A DNA stretch of 64,000 nt, taken from Acidipropionibacterium thoenii DSM 20276 (GTDB lineage: Bacteria > Actinomycetota > Actinomycetes > Propionibacteriales > Propionibacteriaceae). The notes below the pieces were generated by a model. That model was not told the DNA's origin. It saw only the letters and a program-made list of their open reading frames with translations, and did no database searches. Location of the stretch: contig NZ_AUHZ01000007.1 in NCBI RefSeq assembly GCF_000423445.1, forward strand, positions 62,001-126,000. The letters are read 5' to 3'. Made by a program: the position numbers and the translations under genes. Positions 43,259 to 47,964 of this stretch are shown in pieces (position 1 is the stretch's first letter; each line of letters opens with the position of its first letter).

Positions 43259-43885
43259 GTGGTCACCCCCAGCTATGACACCGAGAGATTCTGGACCATT
43301 CCCAACGTCCTGTCGATCCTCCGGTTGCTCGGTGTGCCTGTTTTCCTGTGGCTGATTCTGGCCCTTCACGCCGACCTGTGGGCGGTGGTGGTGCTCGCCC
43401 TGGCCGGGCTGACTGACTGGCTGGACGGCCAGATCGCCCGACGTTTCCATCAGATCTCCCGGGCTGGTCAGCTGCTCGACCCGGCGGCCGACCGGCTGTA
43501 CATCCTGGCCACCCTCATCGCACTGATGATGCGAGGGGCGATTCCGATGTGGCTGCTGGTGGTGCTGGTGGCCCGCGATGTCGTCATCGCAGGCCTGGTT
43601 CCGCTGCTGCGAACCCGTGGCTACTCCTCCCTGCCGGTCCATTTCGTCGGCAAGGCGGCGACCTTCTGCCTGCTCTACTCCTTCCCGCTGATCCTGCTCG
43701 GCCACCTCACTGAGGGCGGCTGGACGGTGGCGCGGATCCTCGGCTGGGCACTGGCGATCTGGGGAACGGTGCTCTACTGGTGGGCCGGGCTGCTGTACTG
43801 CTACCAGACCTGGCGGATGGTCACCAGCACCCCCGCGAGATCCCAGCTGCGCTCCACCGGCCCGACTGAGGGGACCGACCGATGA
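43259..43885 (+). CDS. pgsA2: CDP-alcohol phosphatidyltransferase (phosphatidylglycerophosphate/cardiolipin synthase type)
   Basis: 208-residue membrane protein with the signature LTDWLDGQIARRFHQISRAG and LLDPAADRLY. Starts with TIPNVLSILRLLGVPVFLW, typical of bacterial PgsA. Position next to the DUF881/sbp genes matches Rv1822. The acceptor (glycerol 3-phosphate or phosphatidylglycerol) is undetermined. Its stop overlaps DUF881 by 4 bases. Confidence 0.87.
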   Translation: MVTPSYDTERFWTIPNVLSILRLLGVPVFLWLILALHADLWAVVVLALAGLTDWLDGQIARRFHQISRAGQLLDPAADRLYILATLIALMMRGAIPMWLLVVLVARDVVIAGLVPLLRTRGYSSLPVHFVGKAATFCLLYSFPLILLGHLTEGGWTVARILGWALAIWGTVLYWWAGLLYCYQTWRMVTSTPARSQLRSTGPTEGTDR

Positions 43886-44775
43886 GCGGCACCGATCACA
43901 CGACCGGGGCGGCTCAGAGCTCGTCGGGGGAGCAGTCCGGGCGGCGCAGCCAACGGCCGGATGCCAGCATGGACCTGCTGCGTCAGGTCCGCGAGGGGGC
44001 TCTGGAGCCCGAGTATCTGCACGCCGCCGACCGGCATGGTTGGCAGCGTCGGCGCGACGATGGCCGACCCGCCGAGGGCGCGAGGTCCACCAGGCCCGGC
44101 GGGCGCGGTTGGATCGGCACTGCGGTGATGCTGCTGCTCGCCGGGCTGCTGCTGGGCGGCGCATGGCGGTCCACCTCGGTGGCCCGGCCCTCCGAACTGG
44201 CCGAGCGCGACGACCTCATCAATCGGATTCAGTCGGCCCAGGCCCACCAGTCGGGTCAGCAGGCAGCGGTCAATCGGCTGCAGGTCCAGGTGAGCTCGAT
44301 GCGCGCCGCCCAGTCGGCCGACAGCAGTCTGGACACCCGGCTGGCAGCAGCCGGGAAGACGGCCGGGACAGTCGCGGTGAGCGGGCCCGGCATCCAGGTC
44401 GTCATCGATGACGCTGCTGACGGGGCCGGTGAGGGCCGGGTCGGGGACCAGGACCTTCGCCAGCTCATCAATGGCCTGTGGCAGGCCGGTGCCGAGGCGA
44501 TCTCGGTCAATGGTCACCGGATCACCACCCGCACCGCGGTGCGCTCGGCCGGCTCGGCGATCACCGTCGACTACGTATCCCTCACCCGGCCCTACCGGAT
44601 CAGTGCGATCGGCGACTCCGCCCAGCTGCCCGGCAGGTTGTCGCAGAACGGTGGGGGACAGTGGTTGACCTACATCTCCGACAACTTCGGGGTGCGTTAC
44701 TCGGTGACCACGGCCACCTCGATGCAGTTGCCGGCCGCCACCCAGACCGCCGTCAACTTTGCCACCCCCCGGTAG
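43882..44775 (+). CDS. DUF881 membrane protein (first copy)
   Basis: 297 residues. A disordered, basic N-terminus (about 75 residues), one transmembrane helix (TAVMLLLAGLLLGGAW), a coiled-coil stretch (LAERDDLINRIQSAQAHQSG to MRAAQSADS) and the DUF881 domain (VSGPGIQVVIDDAADGAGEG, LRQLINGLWQAGAEAISVNG, YRISAIGDSAQL). The DUF881 fold resembles YlxW/YlxX of Bacillus, found in division gene clusters. Overlaps pgsA2. Confidence 0.9.
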   Translation: MSGTDHTTGAAQSSSGEQSGRRSQRPDASMDLLRQVREGALEPEYLHAADRHGWQRRRDDGRPAEGARSTRPGGRGWIGTAVMLLLAGLLLGGAWRSTSVARPSELAERDDLINRIQSAQAHQSGQQAAVNRLQVQVSSMRAAQSADSSLDTRLAAAGKTAGTVAVSGPGIQVVIDDAADGAGEGRVGDQDLRQLINGLWQAGAEAISVNGHRITTRTAVRSAGSAITVDYVSLTRPYRISAIGDSAQLPGRLSQNGGGQWLTYISDNFGVRYSVTTATSMQLPAATQTAVNFATPR

Positions 44776-44891
44776 CCGGAGTCGACTGGGAGAGAAACTG
44801 CTGAGCCGGCACCGGGATCGGGCAGCGGCCTGTCCGGGCGGTACCGGCGACCGACCATGGCAGGATGGGCACGTCGACGAAAGGAAGGCGC

Positions 44892-45224
44892 ATGATCGCG
44901 GTCATCGGTCTGATCGTCGGGGTGATCCTCGGCCTGCTGCTCAATCCCTCGATGCCGATCGCCCTGCAGCCCTACCTGCCGATCATGATCGTCGCGGCGC
45001 TGGACGCCCTGGTGGGTGCTGCCCGGGCATACCTCGGCCGCACCTTCTCCGACAAGATCTTCGTGGTCTCCTTCCTGTCCAATGTGACCATCGCCGGTCT
45101 GATGGTCTGGGTGGGGGACAGGATCGGCGTCGGCACTCAGCTGTCCACCGCCGTGGTCGTGGTCCTCGGGATCAGGATCTTCACGAATGTGGCTGCCATC
45201 CGACGGGCCCTGCTCCATGTCTGA
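44892..45224 (+). CDS. sbp: Small basic protein Sbp (DUF1290)
   Basis: 110-residue membrane protein with three helices (VIGLIVGVILGLLLNPSM, IMIVAALDALVGAARAYL, LSTAVVVVLGIRIFTNVAAI). Matches DUF1290, called Sbp in Bacillus where it lies in the division cluster. ATG 44892 after GGAAGG. Overlaps the second DUF881 gene by 8 bases. Confidence 0.92.
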   Translation: MIAVIGLIVGVILGLLLNPSMPIALQPYLPIMIVAALDALVGAARAYLGRTFSDKIFVVSFLSNVTIAGLMVWVGDRIGVGTQLSTAVVVVLGIRIFTNVAAIRRALLHV

Positions 45225-46050
45225 ATCCGGCAGGGCACGACACGACAGCTCCCGCACCACCGATCCGGCCCCCGGCAGCCCGGATGCTGCCGGCCCGGCA
45301 GCCGACGCCGAGGAGACCGCCGCACCGCAGCCCTCCGTGTGGGCCCGGATCGGCCACGACCTGCTCCACCCGGGGATCGGCCAGCTGGTGGTCGCCGTGA
45401 TCCTGTGCCTGTCGACCTTCGCGGTGGTCAGCCAGATCCGCTCCCGGGCCGAGGATGATCCCTTCTCGGGGATGCGCCGGGCCGATCTGGTGACCATGCT
45501 GGACAATCTGTCGACCTCCTCGCGCCAGCTGGACTCCGAGCTCGCCGAGTTGCGCGACACCCAACGTGAGTTGCAGTCGGGGGCCGACTCCCAGCAGGCC
45601 GCCCGCAAACAGGCCGCCAGCAGGCTCTCCCAGCTCCAGGTGCTGTTGGGCACGGTGCCGGTGCAGGGTCCCGGTATCACCCTGGTGATCAAGGACCCCG
45701 ATGCGAAGGTGACCTCCGACATGCTGCTGGACGCCGTCGAGGAGCTTCGCGATGCCGGGGCCGAGGCGATCTGCCTCAATGGCAGGGTCCGGGTGGTCGC
45801 CAGCACCTGGTTCGCGTCGGGGGCGGACTCGGTGCTCGCCTCCGGGACGCCGATCAGCCGTCCCATCACCATCCAGGCGATCGGCGACCCGCACTCCCTG
45901 GAGGAGGGTGCCCGGTTCCGCGGTGGCCTGGTCTCGCAGGTGGAATCGGCACAGAGCGGGGCCACCGTGCAGATCACCCAGAAGCAGCAGATCAGGATCG
46001 ACGCGGTGGCCGCCTCCGCGCCGATGAGCAACGCCACGCCGGTCCGCTGA
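45217..46050 (+). CDS. DUF881 membrane protein (second copy)
   Basis: 277 residues with the same layout as the first copy: disordered N-terminus, one helix (QLVVAVILCLSTFAVVSQI), coiled coil (LTMLDNLSTS to QQAARKQAASRLSQLQ) and DUF881 domain (VQGPGITLVIKDPDAKVTSD, LLDAVEELRDAGAEAICLNG, ITIQAIGDPHSLEEG). Together with sbp and the first copy it probably forms one membrane complex; partner interaction is inference. Confidence 0.9.
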   Translation: MSESGRARHDSSRTTDPAPGSPDAAGPAADAEETAAPQPSVWARIGHDLLHPGIGQLVVAVILCLSTFAVVSQIRSRAEDDPFSGMRRADLVTMLDNLSTSSRQLDSELAELRDTQRELQSGADSQQAARKQAASRLSQLQVLLGTVPVQGPGITLVIKDPDAKVTSDMLLDAVEELRDAGAEAICLNGRVRVVASTWFASGADSVLASGTPISRPITIQAIGDPHSLEEGARFRGGLVSQVESAQSGATVQITQKQQIRIDAVAASAPMSNATPVR

Positions 46051-46174: not shown

Positions 46175-46221
46175 TGGTCTCCGCGCAACGGATACCATCC
46201 GACGTCCAGGAGGTTTCTGCG

Positions 46222-46611
46222 ATGGCCGACGCCCCGGAGGATCTCCAGTACGCCACCGACCACGTCTGGGTGCGTCCTGGTAACGGTGACGAGGTACGGG
46301 TCGGGCTCACTGCCGCCGGTGTCGAGAACCTCGGCGAGGTGGTCGGAGTCACCCTTCCCGAGGTCGGCGACGAGCTGGCCAGGGGAGATGTCGCAGTGGA
46401 GATCGACACCGATGACGAGGCGGTCGACGTCGACGCACCGGTGAGCGGACAGGTGGTGGCCGTCAACCAGGTGATTGTCGATGCCGTCTCGGCGTTGGTC
46501 TCCGACCCCTATGGCGACGGCTGGTTGATAGCCGTGGAACTGGGGGATCCCTCCGAGCTGGACGACCTGCTGGACGTCGACGGTTATGAGAGCCTCACGG
46601 AGTCCTCATGA
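46222..46611 (+). CDS. gcvH: Glycine cleavage H-protein-like, no lipoyl lysine
   Basis: 129 residues with a full H-protein fold: LQYATDHVWVR, VRVGLTAAGVENLGEVVGV, APVSGQVVAVN and SDPYGDGWLIAVEL. In functional H proteins a lysine eight residues before this APxSG proline carries lipoate (ESxKS/A). Here that stretch is EIDTDDEAVDVDAP, with Asp65 at the lipoyl position, and the whole protein contains no lysine. It is very acidic. It cannot be lipoylated, so it probably does not shuttle aminomethyl groups. ATG 46222 follows AGGAGG. Position before garA matches Rv1826 gcvH. Confidence 0.85.
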   Translation: MADAPEDLQYATDHVWVRPGNGDEVRVGLTAAGVENLGEVVGVTLPEVGDELARGDVAVEIDTDDEAVDVDAPVSGQVVAVNQVIVDAVSALVSDPYGDGWLIAVELGDPSELDDLLDVDGYESLTESS

Positions 46612-46738
46612 GCCGACTGTCCATCATGGGGGCAGCCTGGTCCGCAACGAGCAGACTTGATCGAGAAGGCACACCCGGCAAGCGGCACGGGTGCCGGGTA
46701 ACAGAACCCTGAGAAGGGTCGAGAGCGAGGATGACGAG

Positions 46739-47245
46739 ATGAACAAGTGCCTCAGGTGCGGGCAGGACAACGTCGAGGACGCCAACTTCTGCTCACGCTG
46801 CGGAGCGCGGCTCGGCGCGGCTGCCGGGATCCCCGGCGACAACACCGGCGTCATCCCGGTGATGACCGATGATGTCGTCACCGAGACCCCGGCGCTGTCG
46901 GGGGAGGCCCTCTCGGCGATCGAGAACCTGGCCGAGGGAAATGGCTTGTTGGTGGTCGAGCGTGGGCCCAATGTCGGCACCCAGTTCGTGCTCGACCAGG
47001 ACGTCACGACCGCTGGCCGTAGCACCCACTCCGACATCTTCCTCGACGACATCACGGTCTCCCGACACCATGTGAAGTTCCTCAAGAAGGACGGCAGGAT
47101 CTTCGTCGAGGACCAGGGCAGCCTGAACGGCACCTATGTCAATCGGACCCTGGTCGACGGCTCTGCGCCGCTGCGTGAAGGTGACGAGGTCCAGATCGGG
47201 AAGTTCCGGATGATCTTCCACGCCGGCGGGAGCGGTCTGCGCTGA
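46739..47245 (+). CDS. garA: GarA/OdhI-like FHA protein with N-terminal zinc ribbon
   Basis: 168 residues. An N-terminal zinc ribbon (C4, C7, C18, C21: CLRCGQDN and CSRCGARL) precedes a Thr-containing linker and a FHA domain (LVVERGPNVGTQFVLDQ, TAGRSTHSDIFLDDITVSRHH, GSLNGTYVNRTLVDG, GDEVQIGKFRMIF). The FHA region matches GarA/OdhI, which inhibits 2-oxoglutarate dehydrogenase until phosphorylated on a Thr in ETTSVF. That motif is absent here; VTETPALSG and TGVIPVMT are candidate Thr sites. ATG 46739. Overlaps ftsR by one base. Confidence 0.88.
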   Translation: MNKCLRCGQDNVEDANFCSRCGARLGAAAGIPGDNTGVIPVMTDDVVTETPALSGEALSAIENLAEGNGLLVVERGPNVGTQFVLDQDVTTAGRSTHSDIFLDDITVSRHHVKFLKKDGRIFVEDQGSLNGTYVNRTLVDGSAPLREGDEVQIGKFRMIFHAGGSGLR

Positions 47246-47964
47246 TGGCTGGTCAGGTCTGGAGCATTGGGCAGGTGATGAAGCTGCTGAAGCCCGAGTT
47301 CACCGACCTGTCCATCTCGAAGATCCGATTCCTGGAGTCGGAGGGTCTGCTGAGCCCCGAGCGCGCTCCTTCCGGCTACCGCAAGTACGCCCAGGCCGAT
47401 GTCGAGCGGCTGCAGTACATCCTCACCTGTCAGCGCGACAACTTCCAGCCGCTCAAGGTGATCCGTGAGCACCTGGAGATGATCGATCGCGGCGAGGAGC
47501 CGCCTGCGGTGGACCAGCCCTCCCCGCCGGGCGGACCGGCCGAGACGGAGCCCGCCGGCGGAGCAGCCGGCGTCGGCCCGGCAGTGATCCGCCGGGCCAA
47601 GGGCCCGATCAGGATGAACCGGCGGGAGCTGGTCCGTGCCAGCGGGATCACCGAGGCGCATCTGGTCGAGCTGGAGCGTCACCAGCTGGTCCGCACCAAG
47701 CGGGGCCAGCAGTGGTACGGCCAGGAGGCCCTGATGGTCTGCGTCGCCTCTCGGCGACTGCGTGACTTCGGGATGGACACCCGACACATCCGAGCCATCC
47801 GCCAGGCCGCCGAACGTGAGGCAGGAATGATCGAGCAGACCGTGATGCCCCATGCCCGGCGCGCCCACCAGGCCGACCAGCAGGTCAGCAAGCTGGCCTC
47901 TGAGATCACCCAGCTGGTGATCCACGCGCACGCCGCGATGGTCTATGACCTCCTGGAGCACTGA
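47245..47964 (+). CDS. ftsR: MerR-family regulator, FtsR-like
   Basis: 239 residues, homologue of Rv1828; the corynebacterial FtsR activates ftsZ. The N-terminal winged helix has SIGQVMKLLKPEFTDLSISK, RFLESEGLLSPERAPSGYRKY and VERLQYILTCQRDNFQPLKV. A Pro/Gly-rich linker (residues 90-115) leads to a second conserved domain with a predicted effector/dimer helix. Coupled to garA by TGATG, so it is likely in the same operon. Confidence 0.9.
   Translation: MAGQVWSIGQVMKLLKPEFTDLSISKIRFLESEGLLSPERAPSGYRKYAQADVERLQYILTCQRDNFQPLKVIREHLEMIDRGEEPPAVDQPSPPGGPAETEPAGGAAGVGPAVIRRAKGPIRMNRRELVRASGITEAHLVELERHQLVRTKRGQQWYGQEALMVCVASRRLRDFGMDTRHIRAIRQAAEREAGMIEQTVMPHARRAHQADQQVSKLASEITQLVIHAHAAMVYDLLEH

Follow-up and report, generated by a model that had tools for sequence, protein, structure and literature searches.

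In Acidipropionibacterium thoenii the gcvH-like gene next to garA encodes a glycine-cleavage H protein that has lost its lipoyl lysine, and the same loss is found at this locus throughout the Acidipropionibacterium and Cutibacterium copies that we could collect. The gene of both genera is under purifying selection and is not a dead gene. The reading that we favour, and hold to be probable, is that the garA-locus gcvH has turned into a non-carrier, a retained protein with the H fold that works independently of lipoate in a putative binding or scaffold role. The gene lies in a stretch of 64,000 nucleotides from strain DSM 20276 (contig NZ_AUHZ01000007.1, positions 62,001 to 126,000), here called the window, and all coordinates are counted from its first letter. 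The gene and the parts of it that matter for the argument are the following.

46208 to 46213, forward strand: Shine-Dalgarno-like AGGAGG, 8 bases 5' of the ATG of the H gene
46222 to 46611, forward strand: gcvH-like gene of the garA-locus type without the lipoyl lysine, 129 amino acids, no lysine and no cysteine (PF01597, 88.4 bits; AlphaFold/Foldseek)
46264 to 46266, forward strand: codon of Val15, which replaces the arm-holding Glu (E. coli Glu14; alignment and residues of PMC7733448)
46273 to 46299, forward strand: N-terminal hairpin Arg18 ... Gly20-Asn21-Gly22 ... Arg26, residues kept in 13/13 copies
46414 to 46416, forward strand: Asp65 codon (GAC), where the lipoyl lysine is encoded in other H genes (translation and alignment with E. 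coli H)
46423 to 46425, forward strand: codon of Val68, which replaces the cavity Ser (E. coli Ser67; alignment and residues of PMC7733448)

The alignment of the product with E. coli H spans residues 1-127, and in the profile search its PF01597 score of 88.4 bits stands against a cut-off of 22.2. It only just reaches the less strict NF002270 subfamily (118, cut-off 117) and falls under the cut-off of the TIGR00527 gcvH equivalog (97.2, cut-off 115.85). The AlphaFold model has a pLDDT of 86.8; its top Foldseek match is 1onl, with TM values of 0.92/0.94, and M. tuberculosis H (3hgb and 3ift) and E. coli H (3a8i) are matched as well, with TM values of about 0.9. Lysine-bearing H proteins make up 44 of the 48 rows in the alignment from which the model was built; its H fold was therefore to be expected and is uninformative on function. 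The lipoyl-site region is spanned by the stretch EIDTDDEAVDVDAP; it aligns without gaps, and Asp65 stands opposite the lysine of E. coli ESVK (PDB 3a8i). An earlier note, made from the letters of this DNA, had described an H-protein fold, 129 residues, a complete absence of lysine and Asp65 at the lipoyl-lysine position, and the profile and Foldseek matches, the open reading frame and the E. coli alignment bear out each of these points. The same note had stated that the protein cannot carry lipoate, and the sequence, with Asp65 at the usual lipoyl site and no lysine, agrees with this.

Upstream and downstream of the H gene, profile searches gave the neighbours listed here.

43259 to 43885, forward strand: CDP-alcohol phosphatidyltransferase, pgsA-like
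43882 to 44775, forward strand: DUF881 protein, the first of two
44865 to 45224, forward strand: DUF1290 small basic protein, which we take to be sbp
45187 to 46050, forward strand: DUF881 protein, the second of two
46691 to 47245, forward strand: FHA protein of the GarA/OdhI kind, zinc ribbon at its N terminus; the start codon is uncertain
47245 to 47964, forward strand: FtsR, a MerR-family regulator (NF050798, 250.6 bits, cut-off 150)

The gene order is pgsA, DUF881, DUF1290/sbp, DUF881, H, GarA/OdhI-like FHA, FtsR, BFN and MerR, and it is the same around the H gene in all 13 Acidipropionibacterium and Cutibacterium genomes that have a garA-locus H. The earlier note had compared the place of the gene with that of M. 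tuberculosis gcvH, presumably Rv1826, and the garA-locus synteny supports this. The synteny DUF881-sbp-DUF881-H-garA-ftsR, together with Arg26, assigns the protein to the orthologue group of the garA-locus H proteins. In the FHA protein the zinc ribbon (PF13240) covers residues 19-41 of the open reading frame, and the score of 146.2 compares with an OdhI cut-off of 200.

In the genome of the window (G000; 2.94 Mb, 99.9 % complete) a gcvT-gcvH-gcvP operon (G000:C1:419788-424285) supplies a second gcvH, a canonical one with ESTKSVSD, and lipA, for lipoyl synthase, was found too. A second gcvH with ESxK, gcvT and gcvP, for which the earlier note had proposed to search, are thus all present in the same genome and in one operon. 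A weak second GcvT-like match at G000:C19:8612-9313 scores 22.9 bits, below the cut-off, and is perhaps a folate-binding paralogue, a name that is a guess.

The lipoyl lysine is absent from the garA-locus H in 5/5 Acidipropionibacterium genomes searched and in all eight copies from nine Cutibacterium genomes; in the ninth, G110, there is no H gene at the garA locus. All 14 genomes have the gcvT-gcvH-gcvP operon, and its H has ESTKSVSD. Because the copies of the relatives also lack the lipoyl lysine, a sequencing error or frameshift can be ruled out (5 Acidipropionibacterium and 8 Cutibacterium genomes with the gene); ESVK restored in related genomes, which the earlier note had named as evidence of such an error, was seen in none of the 13. 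In a tree of eight garA-locus proteins the two genera are sisters (UFBoot 100), and therefore a single loss can explain both.

According to the garA-locus tree the lipoyl lysine was lost again in G024, in G055 and in G051/G080, which makes four independent losses in total. G024 has a gcvTHP operon elsewhere in its genome; genome searches gave no gcvP and no gcvT match in G055, G051 and G080. G051 and G055, whose garA loci are L136 and L137, respectively, have no match for gcvP, gcvT or lipA and have kept a lysine-less garA-locus H nevertheless. A tree of the H proteins only is poorly resolved and joins G024 to the Acidipropionibacterium and Cutibacterium copies (0.925), which we take as long-branch attraction; in the garA-locus tree the branch that separates G024 has a UFBoot of 76. 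It is possible that G024 shares the loss with the two genera, or that a transfer occurred. Because the two trees conflict, the count of independent losses is uncertain. G085 (L139) is without gcvP and gcvT matches, and its garA-locus H keeps ESTK with an insertion of three residues directly after it. G144 has gcvT, an intact ESTK and no gcvP match; with gcvT and the intact ESTK present, a gap in the assembly may account for the lack of gcvP.

H proteins seldom lack the lipoyl lysine. The lysine is present in 85/85 other sequences adjoining garA/ftsR, 78/78 adjoining gcvT and 15/15 located elsewhere, counts for which identical sequences were removed (91 to 85 in the garA class) and which come from loci that are no even sample. 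The residue counts skipped two stubs and the loci L001-L008, L033-L035, L056, L072 and L121, which duplicate regions already included, and some genomes are represented twice. Five garA-locus copies had been set apart beforehand as relics, and one of these five has the lysine. Among 80 named loci, which are the best matches to the lysine-less alignment and likewise no even sample, the lysine is missing only in A. jensenii, C. avidum and C. porci. A class-wide search for gcvP was positive in 217/217 genomes, and no GCS-less genomes were obtained there.

We also considered the rule that a second gcvH leads to lysine loss at the garA locus. From the genomes with at least two GCV_H matches, a subset of 60 was searched again, and 18 had at least two at E <= 1e-8. 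Of these, 17 were read, G200 being omitted as its second match is a contig-edge fragment, and 13 of the 17 have a copy adjoining garA/ftsR. The rule is rejected: the garA-locus copies of these other families keep ESTK and HEW in 13/13, and the second copy adjoins gcvT in seven of the 13 genomes. Genus g22, a member of the Propionibacteriaceae with two H genes per genome, also keeps ESVK at the garA locus (4/4). L252 (G418) and L254 (G201) hold tandem pairs of divergent GCV_H genes with ESGKWVG/ESAKWVG, in which Val replaces the Glu of HEW; the stretch read around them gave no match for gcvT, gcvP or garA. L255 (G201) holds a further single GCV_H copy with EAAKFVG. The second H at L246 (G242; 2910) has ESTK and HHW for HEW, and neither garA nor a gcv gene was matched in the stretch read there.

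More than the lysine has been lost. In simulations of E. coli H, as described in PMC7733448, Glu12 and Glu14 hold the aminomethyl-lipoyl arm, and release proceeds via Ser67 and then Asp68. The position of Glu14 is Leu, Val or Ile in all 13 lysine-less Acidipropionibacterium and Cutibacterium copies, and that of Ser67 is changed in all of them as well, to Val in Acidipropionibacterium and to Trp in Cutibacterium. The Glu12 position stays acidic (Asp in 13/13), and the Asp68 position is Asp or Glu in the 13 copies. Because the lipoyl lysine, Glu14 and Ser67 are all missing, these garA-locus H proteins should be unable to run the aminomethyl-lipoyl cycle. Glu14 is kept in 81/85 lysine-bearing garA-locus H proteins and in 78/78 operon H proteins. 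Those without it come from the four g22 genomes (L048-L051), where Leu replaces Glu14 (HLW). They resemble the gene of the window in having a second H in the genome and a changed Glu14, and differ from it in that ESVK is still present; all four have a second H match, which in two of them was traced to a gcvP-gcvT-gcvH cluster. The g22 garA-locus H may represent a halfway state between carrier and non-carrier.

The changes are unevenly spread along the protein. Between Acidipropionibacterium and Cutibacterium the identity of the lipoyl hairpin (residues 60-72) is 0.10; operon H reaches 0.98 there (from 5 and 6 genomes, respectively), and lysine-bearing orthologues reach 0.69. For segments that were drawn after the alignment was inspected, identity of the garA-locus H between the genera is 0.20 at 31-44, 0.17 at 83-94 and 0.42 at 45-59, and it is 0.61-0.70 at 5-30, 73-82, 95-107 and 108-122. 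In these last four segments the values for lysine-bearing orthologues are 0.51-0.74. The kept parts are the N-terminal hairpin with Arg18 and Arg26, a DPxGDGWL segment and an LLDxDxY tail; Arg18, Gly20-Asn21-Gly22, Arg26, Asp56, Asp99, Asp118 and Asp120 are invariant in 13/13. Arg26 is present in all 13 lysine-less copies, in 82/85 lysine-bearing garA-locus H proteins and in 7/78 operon H proteins, which mostly have Thr at this position (58/78). It is also found in 5/5 relic copies of other lineages, including those that seem to be decaying, and this weakens Arg26 as a sign of function. Arg26 may have been kept by inheritance, and the kept residues may determine the fold instead of forming a binding face.

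A different explanation is that the gene is a decaying relic, which lost its function when gcvTHP took over, has no job and is on its way out. We consider this unlikely, as the selection tests show constraint. Under the M0 model (F3x4), which fits one omega per tree and was applied to few species with partly saturated synonymous sites, omega of the garA-locus H is 0.062 for the five Acidipropionibacterium sequences and 0.145 for the eight Cutibacterium sequences, and omega = 1 is rejected with LRT values of 267.6 and 215.0. As controls, these alignments were also read in the +1, +2 and antisense frames, and the values were above 1 (1.19-6.9). The frame is open over 126-139 codons in 13/13 copies, and GGAGG lies closely upstream of the ATG in 13/13. 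A pseudogene can be rejected on these omega values, wrong-frame controls and open frames. In the same genomes omega of the operon H (M0) is 0.089 in Acidipropionibacterium and 0.052 in Cutibacterium. Lysine-bearing garA-locus H proteins from three other genera gave 0.029 (n = 7), 0.065 (n = 4) and 0.014 (n = 4), and the M0 constraint on the lysine-less copies is weaker than that on most of their lysine-bearing orthologues. The NG86 medians are 0.29 (Acidipropionibacterium) and 0.13 (Cutibacterium) for the garA-locus H, and 0.35 and 0.11 for the operon H. Because NG86 and M0 differ in Acidipropionibacterium (0.29 versus 0.062), the exact omega is not secure. What speaks for a relic comes from the wider family, where no H gene was found at the garA locus of 19 of 20 selected genomes and the lysine was lost in the further lineages G024, G055 and G051/G080. 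In the GCS-less pair G051/G080 the pairwise omega of the garA-locus H is 0.51 (97 codons), compared with 0.10 for garA (162 codons). The G080 copy has also ceased to align in its C-terminal part. In these two genomes the gene appears to be decaying.

The main rival is that the protein modulates the GCS: an H protein that cannot be lipoylated would dock on P, T, dihydrolipoyl dehydrogenase or the lipoylation enzymes, compete with the real H and lower the flux. We give this a somewhat better chance than decay and still think it improbable. It would fit that Acidipropionibacterium, Cutibacterium and G024 have a GCS operon beside the lysine-less copy and that this copy seems to decay in the GCS-less G051/G080. 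It would also fit that the model is very close to E. coli H in its crystal structures with T protein and LplA (3a8i and 3a7a). However, the kept sequence is of the garA-locus type with Arg26, unlike the operon H that presumably serves the resident P and T proteins, and the parts most freed are the lipoyl hairpin, which T protein and ligase would be expected to touch, and residues 31-44 and 83-94. The two-H genomes of other families, some of them with the second copy beside gcvT, also argue against it, as their garA-locus copies all keep the lysine. The earlier note had offered yet another explanation, in which selection acted against lysine itself, either because it could be lipoylated or acylated by accident or because strong acidity would serve a binding role, and this we regard as very improbable. 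All five Acidipropionibacterium copies are indeed without any lysine. However, lysine makes up 1.16 % of the neighbouring and gcv proteins, which leads to an expectation of 1.5 per 129 amino acids and a P(0) of about 0.22, so its total absence is unremarkable at the local composition. One lysine elsewhere is present in 5 of the 13 copies without the site lysine, all from Cutibacterium (5/8), and in G053 it stands directly beside the lipoyl site; 20 lysine-bearing orthologues have only 1-4 lysines each, a count taken from 31 H frames with L007, L014, L018, L023 and L030 left aside. The zero count is the loss of the lipoyl lysine combined with ordinary high-GC composition, and selection against lysine finds no support in these numbers. 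As to acidity, the charge at pH 7 is -28, compared with -19 for the canonical H encoded in this genome, and the lysine-less protein is thus the more acidic of the two. The pI estimate is 4.05 for both; this is apparently the lowest value that the routine gives, and it is uninformative.

The earlier note had also thought it possible that the protein, placed between the membrane proteins and the GarA-like/FtsR pair, links envelope and metabolism. An obligatory partnership with the DUF881/GarA/FtsR cluster finds no support: no H gene was found adjoining garA in 19/20 Propionibacteriaceae garA loci (G110 and 18 further genomes), which were chosen mostly for genomes without gcvP or with an H adjoining gcvT/gcvP, and garA and ftsR stay where the H gene is not found. 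At L189 and L190 the absence of H is less certain, as these contigs end within 0.5 kb of garA; an FtsR match was found in 26/30 genomes queried. The garA-locus H is dispensable in the wider family, and a facultative link to GarA or the envelope is possible.

Compared with known systems, the protein is most like GcvH itself (E. coli 3a8i/3a7l, M. tuberculosis 3hgb) in fold (TM about 0.9, rmsd 1.1-1.4) and in length, and it shares the garA-locus synteny with GcvH of Actinobacteria; it differs in lacking the lipoyl lysine, Glu14 and Ser67 and in scoring under the TIGR00527 cut-off. H folds outside glycine cleavage occur in the TIGR03077 not_gcvH family, which we take to be chlamydial, and in GcvH-L (5a35), presumably of Streptococcus, and both are generally described as keeping the lipoyl lysine. 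Against TIGR03077 the protein of the window scores 69, with a cut-off of 144.05, and GcvH-L is a more distant match (TM 0.76/0.86, 19 % identity). LbpA proteins of sulfur oxidation are relatives of H with a job outside glycine cleavage, and according to PMC6067878 they strictly keep the lysine and two conserved cysteines, some archaeal ones lacking the cysteines. The H of the window has no lysine and no cysteine, and so lacks the lysine described there as conserved; among eight neighbours of its gene scanned by profile search there was no Hdr family. A search of the open-access literature, with most subscription papers outside its scope, found no report of an H protein without the lipoyl lysine for these genera. 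We class the lysine-less garA-locus H as an H-fold pseudo-carrier.

The course of events that we propose starts in the common ancestor of Acidipropionibacterium and Cutibacterium, where the gcvTHP operon would have taken over glycine cleavage and thereby freed the older garA-locus copy from carrier duty. This copy has lost the lipoyl lysine, Glu14 and the cavity Ser67. Most likely, the lysine-less copy acts by lipoate-independent binding or scaffolding through the part that was kept, and the N-terminal hairpin and the C-terminal part would form the kept face. We think, although this is the step that we hold least firmly, that the job predates the loss: the garA-locus H would already have had one beside glycine cleavage, which is unmasked here. 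We ascribe it to a pre-existing role because Arg26 marks the garA-locus H and not the operon H. A wider and more tentative extension, which we find rather less likely than not to hold, is that the garA-locus H of Actinobacteria in general has a second, lipoate-independent function, the lysine-bearing copies included. The lysine-less proteins of the two genera would then be natural separation-of-function forms, left with this second function alone.

Because the PF01597 and NF002270 thresholds are passed, automatic annotation is likely to name the garA-locus H GcvH, and metabolic models of Cutibacterium and Acidipropionibacterium may therefore count a false carrier. A gene that has no carrier chemistry and yet is maintained by selection offers a natural experiment on what H proteins may do independently of lipoate, a role that elsewhere can hardly be told apart from the one in glycine cleavage.
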